Assembly (NCBI RefSeq): GCF_004785955.1
Contig: NZ_SJER01000001.1
Coordinates: 682,001 to 746,000, forward strand
Origin: Halostella litorea
GTDB lineage: Archaea; Halobacteriota; Halobacteria; Halobacteriales; Natronoarchaeaceae
Direction: 5' to 3'
Length of the DNA stretch: 64,000 bases
Below the pieces are notes generated by a model that saw only the letters and a list, made by a program, of their open reading frames with translations, did no database searches and was not told the origin of the DNA. The translations under genes and the position numbers were made by a program. This document shows, piece after piece, positions 24,237 through 31,075 of the stretch (positions within the stretch are counted from its first letter, which is position 1; each line of letters starts with the position of its first letter).

Positions 24237-24310
24237 GGGCCAATAGCTCAATCAGGTTGAGCGCTCGGCTGATAACCGGGAGGTTCGCGGTTCAAATCCG
24301 CGTTGGCCCA
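24237..24310 (+). tRNA. tRNA-Ile (GAT anticodon)
   Basis: A 74-base cloverleaf without intron. The acceptor stem GGGCCAA/TTGGCCC pairs perfectly, with discriminator A at 24310 and no encoded CCA. The anticodon arm has loop CTGATAA with anticodon GAT. The T arm is CGCGG/CCGCG around TTCAAAT. The DNA downstream drops in GC and holds small zinc-finger, DUF and pilin genes, so the 3' end may have served as an integration site, although no integrase or duplicated 3' end was found. Confidence 0.95.
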
Positions 24311-25275: not shown

Positions 25276-25668
25276 TTAGTAGCCTTCGTACTTGATTGTC
25301 TGAATTACGTTGCTATTGCCGCTGTTCTGCTCGGCAACAACACTGATTGAACCATCGCCGCTGACGGTAAACTCGTGTGTCGACCCAACACTAGAGAGTT
25401 CTGGGTTAGTTCCGCCAGTGTCACCAGTGAACGTGACTTTGTCAGCGTTGCCCATGTCGGTGACTGTCACAGTGATCGTCCCAGAGCCGGAGTTCTTGTC
25501 CACAGACACCCCAGCGTTGACGTTACCATCTTGGCCCTGACCCAAGTCAAGGACGAACGCGCCGATGACGGCCGCTAGGATCACAGTGATTGCGACCATC
25601 AAAATCACGCCTATCACTGGCGAGACTGCACGTTCATCGTCTCCACTGGTTCGATTGCTACCGATCAT
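25276..25668 (-). CDS. type IV pilin, third gene of a three-pilin operon
   Basis: The protein has 130 residues. The short charged leader ends DDERA, followed by [20 protein letters not shown], the class III signal peptide processed by the prepilin peptidase PibD just before VSP. The hydrophobic H-domain then forms the filament core. The globular part (about 50-130) is beta-rich with Gly, Thr and Ser and includes [16 protein letters not shown]. The first 40 mature residues are nearly identical in the three tandem pilins, while the rest diverges. The ATG overlaps the stop of the preceding pilin gene by four bases. It probably serves surface adhesion or microcolony formation. Confidence 0.88.
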
Positions 25669-26057
25669 GTTCCAGTATCGATTGTCTGGACCTGGTTGCT
25701 ATTGGATGGGCTATCCGCCGTCCCCTGATAGGCAACCACCTGAACGGTCCCATTCCCACTCATATCGACACTGGCTCCGACACTATCAAGCTTCACGGGA
25801 TCACCGGTCGCGCCAGTAATCTTGGATCCACCTGAGACGAAGTAGACTCCATCTGCGTTCCCACTATCAGTCAGGGTTACTGTCCCACCGTCATTTTGGA
25901 CAGCAGCGTTGACGTTGCCTTCTTGGCCCTGGCCCAGATCGAGGACGAACGCGCCGATGACGGCCGCCAGGATCACAGTAATTGCGACCATCAAAATCAC
26001 GCCTATTACTGGCGAGACTGCGCCGTCGTCCTTGAACAGGGACTTATCGCCGATCAT
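25665..26057 (-). CDS. type IV pilin, second gene of a three-pilin operon
   Basis: The protein has 130 residues, with a leader ending KDDGA before [16 protein letters not shown] and a PibD-type cleavage site. The H-domain is shared with its two neighbours. The globular part contains [18 protein letters not shown] and ends VQTIDTGT. The pattern LTDxGNAD is common to all three copies, showing that they arose by duplication. Its start and stop both overlap the neighbouring pilin genes by four bases. Base composition is distinctly lower in GC than the surrounding housekeeping genes. Confidence 0.88.
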
Positions 26058-26446
26058 GGACTCGTAGATCCTGTCTTGAGCGTTTGCACGACGTTTGAGT
26101 TATCTGGGCTGCTTGAGTCGCCTTGGTAAGCAACGACCTGTACCTGGTTGTTCCCTCTCAGATCGTTACTAGTTGCACCGACGGACTCAAGCGGACCACC
26201 GGTACTGGATGCACCTTCGAACTTCACACCATCGGCGTTGCCCATATCGGTCAATGTAGCGACTCCAGTGCTATTGTCGTAGGACACTGCCGCGTTCACG
26301 TTGCCTTCCTGTCCCTGGCCGAGATCGAGGACGAAGGCACCGATAACGGCCGCCAGGATAACGGTTATAGCCACCATCAATATGACACCTATAACCGGGC
26401 TCACGGCACGATCGTCCTCTGTGCTGAATAACGTCTTTACGTTCAT
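26054..26446 (-). CDS. type IV pilin, first gene of a three-pilin operon
   Basis: The protein has 130 residues from ATG 26446 (MNVKTLFSTEDDRA); the frame is open for 17 codons upstream but lacks pilin character there. The leader is followed by [18 protein letters not shown] and the conserved [14 protein letters not shown] segment. The globular part has VATLTDMGNADGVKF and a Ser-rich end. It is the promoter-proximal gene of the cluster. Upstream is an AT-richer 292-base gap shared with a divergent gene at 26739, which probably holds both promoters. Confidence 0.88.
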   Translation of the reverse strand: MNVKTLFSTEDDRAVSPVIGVILMVAITVILAAVIGAFVLDLGQGQEGNVNAAVSYDNSTGVATLTDMGNADGVKFEGASSTGGPLESVGATSNDLRGNNQVQVVAYQGDSSSPDNSNVVQTLKTGSTSP

Positions 26447-27465: not shown

Positions 27466-28725
27466 TCAGCGCGTGAGACCTCGGGGGGCAGCCGTCGGGA
27501 GGCCCGGCAGGTCGATCCCGGCCGTCACCCGGAGGTGTTCGGCCATCGCGTAGGCCATCCACGCCTGACACCAGCGCATGAGCGTGTACCGCTTCGAGAC
27601 GACCCGGCCCTTCCGGAAGCGGAAGCGGCCGTCGCCGGCGTACAGTTCCGCGCGCGTCCAGTCGAATATCCGGCGGGCGAGTTCCTGGTCGCCGGCGTAG
27701 GTGAAGGTGAGGATCCCTTGCGCGCAGGCGTGGATATCACGGGGGTACGCCGACGACTCGTCCCACCGGGGCGCGCCGGAGTCCTCGAACATCGTCCGGG
27801 AGAACGCGAGGGCGTCGTCGACCGTGTCGGCGTACCGGTCGCCGGCGACGTCCGCGTACCGGAGGAACGACTCGACGACGAACCCGTTGTGGAAGTTGTC
27901 CATCGAGAGGTGCGAGGCGTCGGCCGGGTCGCGGTAGTGCCAGCCGCCGCGGTCGGTCTGCAGGGCGGCGACGTGGTCGAGGATGGCCGTCGCGCGGTCC
28001 AGCAGTTCCGCGTCGCCCGTGTGTTCGTACAGGTCGACCAGCAGGCGCGCTCCGATCGCCCCGGCGTTGATGGTGTAGTACTCGTCGGAGTCGTTCGTGT
28101 GGTAGTCGATCACCGCGCCGCCGTCGACCTCGCGATAGTGCAGGTCGTCGACGACGAAGTCGGCGGCGGTGCGCGCCGGGGCCGCGTACTCCGGGTCGAG
28201 CGTCGACGCGGCCAGCAGCGCGCGGACCGGCGGGGCCGTCGCGACGACCGAGGGGTCCGCGGGGTGGCTGAGCGTGTCCAGCGTCTGGATCCGGTGTTTG
28301 TGGCCGCCGCAGAAGCCGCGGTAGCCGGTCGAGCGGTTGTCGAGCAGCCAGTCGACCAGGTGGCGCGCCTCGCCGGCGTAGTCGACCGACGGGTCGGTCC
28401 CGGGGACGTCCCGGGCGGCGAGTCGGCCGGTTGCGAGGTTGGCCGCCGCGAACAGCCCCGCGCCCATGAAGTTGCGGCGGCGCTCGACGAGGAACAGCGG
28501 GCGGACGTTGACGGGGGCGCGCTTTATCGTCTCCTGGAAGGCGAGGTTGACCCACTTGTTCTCGACGGGGAGCGCGCGCAGCAGGCGGCTGCTCAGTCCG
28601 TCGCAGTAGTCCCAGCCGACGTAGTTGCGGGCCCGGGAGTACGAAAGCGTCTCGCGAAGGGTCCGGCTCATCCGCTCGACGGCGGGCGAGTCGTCGGTTC
28701 GGACGGCGTCGACCGTCTCGCTCAT
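27466..28725 (-). CDS. alpha/alpha-toroid protein of a GNAT/ATP-grasp operon
   Basis: The protein has 419 residues from ATG 28725. It has repeated helical hairpins with Asp/His/Trp-rich loops: GFCGGHKHRIQTLDTLSHPAD near 156, YHTNDSDEYYTINAGAIGARLL near 215, GGWHYRDPADASHLSMDNFHNGFVVE near 268, and SAYPRDIHACAQGI near 335. This is the style of (alpha/alpha)6-barrel glycosidases, polysaccharide lyases and lanthionine-cyclase-like proteins. Haloarchaeal relatives occur in surface-polysaccharide clusters and are often misnamed as transport or cyclase proteins. Its start overlaps the ATP-grasp stop by four bases. The substrate is unknown. Confidence 0.7.
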   Translation of the reverse strand: MSETVDAVRTDDSPAVERMSRTLRETLSYSRARNYVGWDYCDGLSSRLLRALPVENKWVNLAFQETIKRAPVNVRPLFLVERRRNFMGAGLFAAANLATGRLAARDVPGTDPSVDYAGEARHLVDWLLDNRSTGYRGFCGGHKHRIQTLDTLSHPADPSVVATAPPVRALLAASTLDPEYAAPARTAADFVVDDLHYREVDGGAVIDYHTNDSDEYYTINAGAIGARLLVDLYEHTGDAELLDRATAILDHVAALQTDRGGWHYRDPADASHLSMDNFHNGFVVESFLRYADVAGDRYADTVDDALAFSRTMFEDSGAPRWDESSAYPRDIHACAQGILTFTYAGDQELARRIFDWTRAELYAGDGRFRFRKGRVVSKRYTLMRWCQAWMAYAMAEHLRVTAGIDLPGLPTAAPRGLTR

Positions 28726-29957
28726 CGTCCCCTCCGCGGGTCCAGGCGGGCGATCAGGGGCGCGACCCGCCCGTCGGTTTCCGGTACTGGCTCCGGCACC
28801 TCGCCGTCCGGCCGACCGTCGTTGCCCGCCCCGCAGTCGCCCGCCTCGTCGTCCGCGGGCGGCGTGAACCACGCCCGGTAGTCGTGGAGGTTGAAGTCGG
28901 GGCGGGCCGGCGGCCACAGCATCGACAGCGCCGCCCGCGGGAGCGACTCGTCGGGGTCGCCGGCCGCGAAGTTCAGCTCGCGGAGGGGAAACACCATCTC
29001 GCGGCGCTGGTCGGGCGTCGGCGGCGTCCAGGGCAGGTCGAGCGTCTCCGCGACCATCGTCGAGACGAAGCGGTAGCCGGCCTGGCTGGCGAGGGCGTAC
29101 GACGCCCACAGCTTCGGGTTGACCTCCATCAGCACGTACGAGCCGTCGGCGCGGCGCTTGAACTCCACCAGCGCGAGCCCGTGCCAGTCGAGCGCCCGGA
29201 GGATCCGGACCGCCGCCGCCTCCAGTTCGGGGTCGCGGTACACCCGGACACGCGTCCCGCTGCCGCCCTGTCTCGGTATCGACCGCCGTTCCTCGTGTTC
29301 GAACAGGGTGCGCACCTCGCCGTCGAGAAACAGCGCGCCGCAGGCGTACGTGTTCGACCCGCCGACGTACTCCTGGACGAGCACGTCGTCGTCGCCCGCC
29401 TCCGCGAGGCGGTCGTACGTCGCCCGGAACTCCTGGGGGCCGTCGACGACGGCGGTGACGTTCTCCCCGGACTCGTGTCTCGCCTTGAGAAAGAGGGGGA
29501 AGGGGAGGTCCTCGGCGGCGTCGGCCGCGCGGTCGGCGTCGGCGAGGGCCGAGAAGTCCGCCGGGGTGTCGATGCCGAGGTCGGCCGCCAGCGACAGCGT
29601 CCGCCGCTTGTCGACGGCGGCCCGCACCGCGTCCGACGGCGGCAGGCAGCACTCGACCCCGTCGGGGAGCCGGCCGCGTATCCCGTCCATCGCCTCGACC
29701 GAGCGGTAGCCGACGGGTACCACCACGTCCGGGCGGTGGCGGTCGACGACCCGCAGGAGTTCGGCCGCGTAGCCGTCGCCGGTCGTGTCGACTGGTTCGC
29801 CGACGTCGCAGTACGTCGAGCGCAACAGCCTGCTCTCCGGCGACGTGCCGACGCCGACGACGGTGGCGTCCAGGTCGACCGACAGCTCCGTCGCGACCTG
29901 GATCGCGTTGTCGAAGTCGCCGTCCAGCACCATAGCGCGGGGCGGTCTGTCGGGCAT
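28722..29957 (-). CDS. ATP-grasp carboxylate-amine ligase-like protein
   Basis: This 411-residue protein has an N-terminal Rossmann-like domain (RAMVLDGDFDNAIQVATELS, residues 6-25, then VVVPVGYRSVEAM). The ATP-grasp fold follows: DKRRTLSLAADLGIDTP near 120, PLFLKARHESGENV near 155 with the ATP-binding Lys, VLVQEYVGGSNTYACG near 200, and the metal-binding LMEVNPKLWASYALA near 277. It resembles PylC- and carbamoylphosphate-type ligases that join a carboxylate to an amine through an acyl phosphate. Overlaps and two-base gaps tie it to the GNAT and toroid genes. The product is unknown. Confidence 0.8.
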   Translation of the reverse strand: MPDRPPRAMVLDGDFDNAIQVATELSVDLDATVVGVGTSPESRLLRSTYCDVGEPVDTTGDGYAAELLRVVDRHRPDVVVPVGYRSVEAMDGIRGRLPDGVECCLPPSDAVRAAVDKRRTLSLAADLGIDTPADFSALADADRAADAAEDLPFPLFLKARHESGENVTAVVDGPQEFRATYDRLAEAGDDDVLVQEYVGGSNTYACGALFLDGEVRTLFEHEERRSIPRQGGSGTRVRVYRDPELEAAAVRILRALDWHGLALVEFKRRADGSYVLMEVNPKLWASYALASQAGYRFVSTMVAETLDLPWTPPTPDQRREMVFPLRELNFAAGDPDESLPRAALSMLWPPARPDFNLHDYRAWFTPPADDEAGDCGAGNDGRPDGEVPEPVPETDGRVAPLIARLDPRRGR

Positions 29958-29959
29958 GG

Positions 29960-31075
29960 TCAGAACCGGTCCTGTTCCGCGAAGGTGAGCGCCCAGTTCC
30001 CCGGGTCCGCGAGCGCCGCCCGCTGCTGCGACGGGCTGCCCCCGTCGCCGCCGAGCGGGCGGGCCGCGAGCCGCAGCCCCGTACAGAACCGGGCGACGAC
30101 CGGCGCGTCGTCCGGCACGAACCCGTACCGCGCGAGCAGCCCCGGCGGGAGCGTCGACTCGGCAACGGCGAGCACGGCCGCGTCCGCGTCGTCCTCGCAC
30201 CACGCCGCGAGCAGGCGGCCGAACGCCCCGCGCCGGCCGCCCGACAGCGGGAGCGCGTCGAATAACCTGACCCGGTCGCCGTCCCTCGTCCGGGTGACGA
30301 ACGCGGCCGCCGGGCCGTCCCCGTCCCGCGCCACGTACGTCGTGTGGTCGAACGCGGGGTTCGCGTACCACCAGTCGAGGAACGTCTCGTCCCGCTCGGC
30401 GTGGAAGCCGTCCGCCCCGGCGGCGTACAGGTCGGCGAGGACGCCCGCGGGGACGCCGTCGTGCTCGTCGACCTCCAGGTCGGCGGCGGGCCCTGTCCGT
30501 TCACAGAGGGACAGACAGCCGCGGAGGACCGGCCCCGCAGCCGCCGCGAGCCGCGCCGGGACCCGTTCGGCCCCGTCGGCGACCGCCGCGGGGTCCTGCA
30601 GCCGGTAGTGGGTCGCGACCCGGTCGACGCCGACCCAGCCCAGGTCCTGCTGCGCGCGGAACGCCCCCGGGTTCGGGTAGTTGAAGAAAAACGACGGCCG
30701 CCCCGTCTCGTAGCGCGCTATCGCGGCCTCCGTCATCCGGGTGTACAGGCCGTTCCGGCGGTGGTCGGAGTCCACGACGGCGTCCGCCGGCTGGAGCGCG
30801 AGCGTCGCGTCCCCGCCCCGCCGGAGCCGGAACGGGACGTACGCCTGCACGCCGACCACCTCGTCCGCGCCCCACGGCCCGGACTCGCGGACGGCGACGG
30901 TCACCGGCACGTGCGAGAGGTACGGGTCCCGGAGGTACTTCCAGTCGAACCAGTCCCCGCTCGGCCGCCGGCCCCACTCCCGCTCGTACAGCGACAGTAT
31001 CCCGTCCCGGTCCCCCGCCTCGTACCAGCGGACGGCGTACTCGTCGCCGGACTCGCGCGAAACCGTCTGGCTCAT
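29960..31075 (-). CDS. GNAT-type acyltransferase, duplicated (FemAB-like arrangement)
   Basis: The protein has 371 residues. The first half has WFDWKYLRDPYLSHVPVTVAV and the acyl-CoA loop region DSDHRRNGLYTRMTEAAIARYE near 105. The second half repeats the theme with FLDWWYANPAFDHTTYVA and a degenerate acceptor domain (GRRGAFGRLLAAW). The two-lobed layout recalls Fem-type peptidyl or amino-acyl transferases. It is the first gene of the GNAT / ATP-grasp / toroid operon, two bases before the ATP-grasp ATG, so the three probably make or modify one compound, for instance a cell-surface sugar or peptide. The reaction is inferred, not shown. Confidence 0.75.
   Translation of the reverse strand: MSQTVSRESGDEYAVRWYEAGDRDGILSLYEREWGRRPSGDWFDWKYLRDPYLSHVPVTVAVRESGPWGADEVVGVQAYVPFRLRRGGDATLALQPADAVVDSDHRRNGLYTRMTEAAIARYETGRPSFFFNYPNPGAFRAQQDLGWVGVDRVATHYRLQDPAAVADGAERVPARLAAAAGPVLRGCLSLCERTGPAADLEVDEHDGVPAGVLADLYAAGADGFHAERDETFLDWWYANPAFDHTTYVARDGDGPAAAFVTRTRDGDRVRLFDALPLSGGRRGAFGRLLAAWCEDDADAAVLAVAESTLPPGLLARYGFVPDDAPVVARFCTGLRLAARPLGGDGGSPSQQRAALADPGNWALTFAEQDRF

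Follow-up and report, generated by a model that had tools for sequence, protein, structure and literature searches.

The window analysed here, a stretch of 64,000 nucleotides from the 3.7 Mb genome of Halostella litorea, contains three adjacent genes encoding a GNAT acyltransferase, an ATP-grasp ligase and an (alpha/alpha)6 toroid protein (Table 1), for which an earlier reading of the same DNA (the original prediction) had proposed a joint role in making one small molecule or surface modification. The coordinates bear out the arrangement described there, three genes on the same strand with a 2-base gap between GNAT and ATP-grasp (29958-29959) and a 4-base ATGA overlap at the junction of ATP-grasp and toroid (28722-28725). 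Because of this tight spacing the trio is very likely transcribed as a single unit, as had been proposed. The window is GC-rich and spurious long open reading frames are abundant in it; all three reading frames of the trio have full-length relatives in other haloarchaea, and their order and strand are conserved in two more genomes of the genus Halostella (loci L033 and L035).

Table 1. Genes of the operon (window coordinates) and representatives of three protein families of glycan gene clusters (coordinates of the respective locus).
Feature	Sequence	Position	Strand	Length and start	Remark
GNAT acyltransferase (P0001)	window	29960..31075	-	371 aa, ATG	operon gene 1; PF13527 Acetyltransf_9
ATP-grasp ligase (P0002)	window	28722..29957	-	411 aa, ATG	operon gene 2; CPSase_L_D2-like
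(alpha/alpha)6 toroid (P0003)	window	27466..28725	-	419 aa, ATG	operon gene 3; no Pfam family over cut-off
Cluster c19 representative	L046	10694-12517			
Cluster c19 representative	L060	8390-10270			
Cluster c5	L098	8303-9307			
Cluster c30	L041	361-1749			

The product of the middle gene passes the cut-off of PF02786 CPSase_L_D2 (36.8 bits, cut-off 19.8) and has orthologues in 15 of the 242 genomes of the class (E 2.7e-99 or better; next match 1.0e-33). The residues K117, K158, E265, E278 and N280 and the pattern HxExRSxPRxGGSGT are invariant across these 15 orthologues, and the E-x-N stretch aligns with its counterpart in carbamoyl phosphate synthetase; the conserved lysines and the acid/amide pair of E-x-N presumably bind ATP and metal. 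Since residues and pattern are invariant, the protein is probably an active ligase, in agreement with the ATP-grasp ligase originally predicted. No TupA-type model, the type to which Cj1438C of Campylobacter jejuni (see below) would belong, was among the families matched at E up to 1.

The first gene had been described as a two-lobed, GNAT/Fem-like acyltransferase, and of this description the GNAT assignment stands: the protein passes PF13527 Acetyltransf_9 (33.8 bits, cut-off 25), whereas no FemAB model (PF02388, PF13480, PF04339) was matched at E up to 1, and a weak resemblance between the N- and the C-terminal half (hhalign probability 49%, E 1.7e-4, 61 columns) hints at a possible two-lobed build. 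A single-sequence search of the PDB returned nothing at E up to 1, and the AlphaFold2 model is of low quality (predicted local distance difference test score, pLDDT, 37.9). Relatives of the GNAT are present in 94 of the 242 genomes.

The toroid lies below the cut-off of GH76 (18.8 bits, cut-off 25.9), a model to which 17 of 51 members of the toroid family align with E values of 0.01 or less (best 4.1e-7). Neither a profile of the 51 toroids nor the single sequence retrieved a PDB entry (nothing below E 0.01 and nothing at E up to 1, respectively). In line with the (alpha/alpha)-barrel of the original prediction, however, the AlphaFold2 model, built with eight sequences (pLDDT 73.6, predicted template modelling score 0.80), aligns to (alpha/alpha)6 enzymes over about 320 residues with Z about 27, and is equally close to the GH76 mannanase 4v1r (Z 27.4) and the cellobiose 2-epimerase 5zig (Z 27.3, 328 residues). 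What the modelled toroid has in common with GH76 mannanases and with the cellobiose 2-epimerase/AGE family is the overall fold, whereas sequence identity in the structural alignments is about 8-16%; this fold is common to GH76, GH88 and others, so that it leaves the family undecided. The catalytic pair of GH76 consists of neighbouring aspartates and the AGE/cellobiose 2-epimerase family uses catalytic histidines; two histidines, H279 and H332, are invariant among the 51 toroids. Within the class, 72 of the 242 genomes have a toroid match, which is strong (E 4.3e-54 or better) in 68 and short and weak in four, and in a phylum sample of 294 genomes the toroid was found in 20, eight of them outside the order. 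The three families are of the kinds that build or decorate peptides or sugars, as had been supposed.

To regard the exact trio as a conserved pathway was too strong, as it occurs in 3 of the 242 genomes, all of the same genus as the window, with fragments in two more. What the genome-neighbourhood search suggested in the original prediction did recover across haloarchaea is the ATP-grasp with the toroid and with some GNAT-fold acyltransferase, mostly of the FemAB type instead of this GNAT family. The toroid lies directly behind the ATP-grasp on the same strand in 9 of the 15 orthologue loci (gaps of -22 to 71 bases), the pair thus being found in six genomes beyond the three with the trio, and a GNAT-fold acyltransferase is encoded within 10 kb of the ATP-grasp in all 15, compared to none of 20 control regions, which were arbitrary regions in 20 of the same genomes. 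The acyltransferase belongs to PF13527 in four loci (window, L033, L035 and L037), in each of which it lies directly upstream of the ATP-grasp, and to the FemAB/PF13480 type in 11. In genomes of the Natrialbaceae type the FemAB-type gene is the third gene beside the same ATP-grasp and toroid, the order being ATP-grasp, toroid, FemAB type (L038, L039, L042, L043 and L044, and the named Natrarchaeobius and Natrialba loci L056-L058); the assignment to FemAB is based on one representative, which passes the cut-offs of both PF13480 (37.4 bits) and PF02388 (32.9 bits), whereas the window GNAT belongs to PF13527. Because the acyltransferase families beside the ATP-grasp differ, it is apparently a function rather than one protein that recurs, and we regard this swap beside a constant ligase as the strongest argument for a joint pathway.

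A scan of named genomes for the ATP-grasp yielded 19 loci, 15 haloarchaeal and four in bacterial metagenome-assembled genomes. The haloarchaeal loci include that of Halostella pelagica DL-M4 (CP040678.1), which corresponds to one of the trio genomes already counted; the toroid lies directly behind the ATP-grasp in six of the 15, and a GNAT or FemAB-type gene is present in 12. The Natronococcus and Halovivax loci (L059, L060, L063-L065) yielded no toroid, and four of these five have the FemAB type; in loci of Natronococcus, Halovivax and Halapricum the ATP-grasp orthologue lies within glycan clusters. The bacterial relatives are 42% (Bacillota and Microbacterium), 31% (Dehalococcoidia) and 25% (Patescibacteria) identical to the ATP-grasp. 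In the Microbacterium assembly the relative is found amid sugar-nucleotide epimerase, GT2 and flippase-like genes, with GNAT-like and Wzy-like neighbours that score below the model cut-offs, and in the Dehalococcoidia assembly WecB and flippase-type genes are nearby. In a tree of the toroids, from which identical rows and rows outside 330-520 aa were excluded, the trio toroids group with that of L054 (support 99) and the toroids of the Natrialbaceae and G177 loci form a second group (support 94); a topology uniting both groups of ATP-grasp-paired toroids, as expected if the pairing arose once, was not rejected (approximately unbiased test, p-AU 0.211).

For the gene neighbourhoods of the toroid family we collected 85 loci (L032-L051, L071-L135), of which 78, the trio loci included, have a called toroid; six, fetched for their ATP-grasp, have none, and in L126 the gene caller missed the toroid, as it missed the ATP-grasp in L038 and L042, whose coordinates were taken from the homology search. 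Of the 78 toroid loci, 65 have a homologue of GT2, DUF354, WecB or a flippase at a distance of at most 10 kb, compared to 1 of the 20 control regions, in support of the original statement that related toroids occur in haloarchaeal polysaccharide clusters; 58 have a GNAT or FemAB type in the same range, compared to none. The hidden Markov models behind these counts were built from the same loci, which favours detection there, and part of the analysis was repeated by BLAST, which found a WecB homologue in 38 and a UDP-sugar dehydrogenase in 31 of the 78 loci and neither in the controls; the loci are related by descent, so the counts are not independent. Among six non-haloarchaeal toroid loci (of the eight genomes outside the order, G309 and G356 lie outside this set), five have a WecB homologue in the vicinity and four have DUF354, with one of these matches weak. 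Because glycan genes flank most toroid loci and rarely the controls, we count the toroid, by association, as a putative surface-glycan protein, usually without a neighbouring ATP-grasp.

The source genome itself encodes a second toroid, 67% identical to that of the window, on contig C5 (L032, L177); the ends of this contig overlap by 127 bases, so that a circular replicon of about 107 kb is probable. This toroid is adjoined by DUF354 and FemAB-type genes and by WecB (cluster c8) and GT2 (cluster c6) homologues, and across the contig ends by homologues of four further enzymes: UDP-sugar dehydrogenase, GFO-type dehydrogenase, DegT aminotransferase and hexapeptide acetyltransferase. Together with WecB, C5 encodes the complete set of five homologues of a diacetamido-uronic acid route, each with a BLASTP E under 1e-79. 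By analogy with bacterial O-antigen routes, such a set would direct the synthesis of nucleotide-linked 2,3-diacetamido-uronic acid. UDP-sugar dehydrogenase, GFO-type dehydrogenase, DegT and WecB occur together in 17 of the 78 toroid loci; the 20 control regions contain not one of the five route homologues. With NCBIfam models applied to representatives from L117 and L040, WecB passes the equivalog cut-off and the L117 dehydrogenase the cut-off of an NDP-sugar dehydrogenase subfamily; the models for 3-dehydrogenase, aminotransferase and acetyltransferase were matched only below cut-off.

A haloarchaeal exopolysaccharide made from such a sugar has been described, probably from Haloferax denitrificans. 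The sugar reported for this polymer is 2,3-diacetamido-2,3-dideoxyglucuronic acid (PMC3191746), and the walls of Halococcus are reported to contain uronic acids, amino sugars and little glycine (PMC4187196). By analogy, both that polymer and wall sugars of the Halococcus type would be plausible targets of an amide ligase. The gene set around the second toroid fits the former sugar, whereas the trio sits elsewhere in the genome; the polymer that it would modify may be the one made by the C5 cluster.

In our favoured reading, to which we assign a probability of roughly 55%, the trio would be an operon whose cytoplasmic enzymes modify an acidic surface glycan containing amino sugars, and would serve as a satellite to the main glycan cluster encoded elsewhere in the genome. 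Its chemistry can be pictured in three steps. The ATP-grasp would activate a carboxylate as acyl phosphate and couple it to an amine, giving an amide; the carboxylate is likely to be either C6 of a (diacetamido)uronic acid bound to a nucleotide or lipid, or the carboxylate of an amino acid destined for attachment to the sugar. The GNAT would then acylate an amino group on the sugar or on the new side chain, a step in which a FemAB-type acyltransferase appears to substitute for it elsewhere in haloarchaea. Finally, and this is the least certain step, the toroid might hold the sugar in its central cavity and epimerise, trim or otherwise reshape it. Of the two kinds of product originally proposed, a glycan modification is more likely than a free small molecule, since the partners that recur are genes for surface glycans.

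A precedent for the first step comes from the capsule of Campylobacter jejuni, in which, ahead of chain extension, the TupA-like ATP-grasp domain of Cj1438 amidates the C6 carboxylate of glucuronic acid with serinol phosphate or ethanolamine phosphate (PMC11800379). Both would be ATP-grasp enzymes of a surface-polysaccharide pathway, the C6 uronic amide being demonstrated there and proposed for the window ATP-grasp. The bacterial ligase, as described there, forms one protein with a glycosyltransferase and needs neither a toroid nor a GNAT, and its Cj1438C domain is called TupA-like, whereas the window ATP-grasp lacks a TupA match. We accordingly propose an analogy in which the window ATP-grasp would work like the Cj1438 domain without belonging to its family. 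A more specific version of the favoured reading is a cassette for an archaeal diacetamido-uronic-acid polymer, in which the ATP-grasp adds an amine or amino acid to the uronic carboxylate, the GNAT (FemAB type elsewhere) acylates, the toroid belongs to a new family of cytoplasmic toroids that act on glycans, perhaps by epimerising C5 or C2, and retention or loss of the whole at one fixed site serves to vary the surface; in this detail it is speculative, and we regard it as unlikely.

Several results weigh against a glycan-decorating operon. In none of its three genomes is the intact operon beside glycan genes, an ATP-grasp is near only 17 of the 78 toroid loci (none of the 20 controls), and 6 of the 15 ATP-grasp orthologue loci have no toroid. 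No acyltransferase was seen at three of the 15 haloarchaeal loci of the named scan, two of them short (L062, L063) and one with an uncalled stretch (L068). Stretches of the toroid model with a pLDDT below 50 hold several of the invariant residues, and no catalytic residue of the toroid was assigned. Lastly, the tested toroid, ATP-grasp and glycan families are absent from all nine examined loci with GNAT relatives of 40-51% identity.

The GNAT is the weakest link of the trio model, and this last result, together with the wide distribution of its relatives noted above, is what would be expected if ATP-grasp and toroid worked as a pair and the GNAT were a bystander with a separate task such as protein or metabolite acylation. 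We think this improbable. In genome G137, which lacks the toroid, a PF13527 GNAT also lies immediately upstream of the ATP-grasp, a GNAT-fold acyltransferase accompanies every ATP-grasp orthologue locus, and three genomes from a single other family (L050, L110, L112) each have a toroid in one glycan cluster with relatives of the GNAT (38-41% identity) and of the ATP-grasp (33-34%).

The position of the intact operon away from glycan genes would also suit a pathway to a peptide-like or amino-acid-derived natural product or osmolyte, with the ATP-grasp as amino-acid ligase, the GNAT as tailoring acyltransferase and a cyclase-like toroid, the glycan neighbours of the toroid family being incidental. 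The relatives of the ATP-grasp include the D-Ala-D-Ala ligase and RimK types, which form peptide bonds, and the toroid is weakly LanC-like (LanC-type models are weakly matched by 3 of the 51 family members, and the window toroid matches LanM with E 0.0035). The haloarchaeal orthologues and bacterial relatives of the ATP-grasp inside glycan clusters argue against such a pathway, as does the operon itself, which comprises no exporter, precursor peptide or regulator among the called genes; we give it a rather low chance.

The site of the trio is flanked by the same genes (85, 116, 197 and 434 aa) in five genomes of the genus (the window, L033, L035, L174 and L175), three with the whole trio and two with fragments only. 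In G243 (89% complete) residues 45-134 of the ATP-grasp are matched and followed at once by toroid residues 232-409 (L175 9476-10279), and in G242 (99% complete) there is a weak match to the toroid C-terminus alone (L174 8233-8367; query residues 367-411, 43% identity, E 8.6e-5). The simplest reading of these fragments is the loss of an optional trait, the trio most likely being a small, easily lost cassette. That they instead mark genes which are decaying or functionless throughout the genus, the intact copies being on their way to loss, is highly improbable, as three genomes have all frames intact, their proteins being 57-88% identical, and the ATP-grasp retains its conserved residues.

As far as we found, the enzyme types are known in outline and the product and the toroid are uncharacterised, and a search of open-licence literature retrieved no paper on the combination of GNAT, ATP-grasp and toroid. 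The favoured reading offers a hypothesis that can be tested, both for toroids that lack their own Pfam family and for the well-defined family of ATP-grasp ligases common to haloarchaea and some bacteria, and the exchange of the acyltransferase beside the conserved ligase may help to identify the reaction. If the reading is true, archaea would amidate acidic sugars of surface polymers by means of an ATP-grasp and an acyltransferase, similar to a bacterial capsule that uses an unrelated ATP-grasp type.

Some further observations concern the neighbourhoods. The representatives of three recurrent families of the glycan clusters, c19 (about 610 aa), c5 (310-330 aa) and c30 (about 450 aa), have no Pfam match at the thresholds used (Table 1). 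At the Natrialbaceae-type loci (L038, L039, L042-L044, L056-L058) a PhoU/TrkA_C protein is encoded near the ATP-grasp operon, in most of them together with a seryl-tRNA synthetase gene; the latter prompted the idea of a seryl-tRNA-dependent FemAB chemistry, and this neighbourhood probably reflects local synteny. In the window, three tandem pilin-like genes of 130 aa each with near-identical starts (25276-26446, minus strand) lie close to the trio. Modification of these pilins by the trio, considered for their proximity, was rejected, as the sites with an intact cassette in L033 and L035 have no pilin-gene match and two such matches are found at the cassette-less site of G242 (L174). The pilin-like genes adjoin a tRNA-Ile gene (24237-24310) within a stretch of lower GC content.

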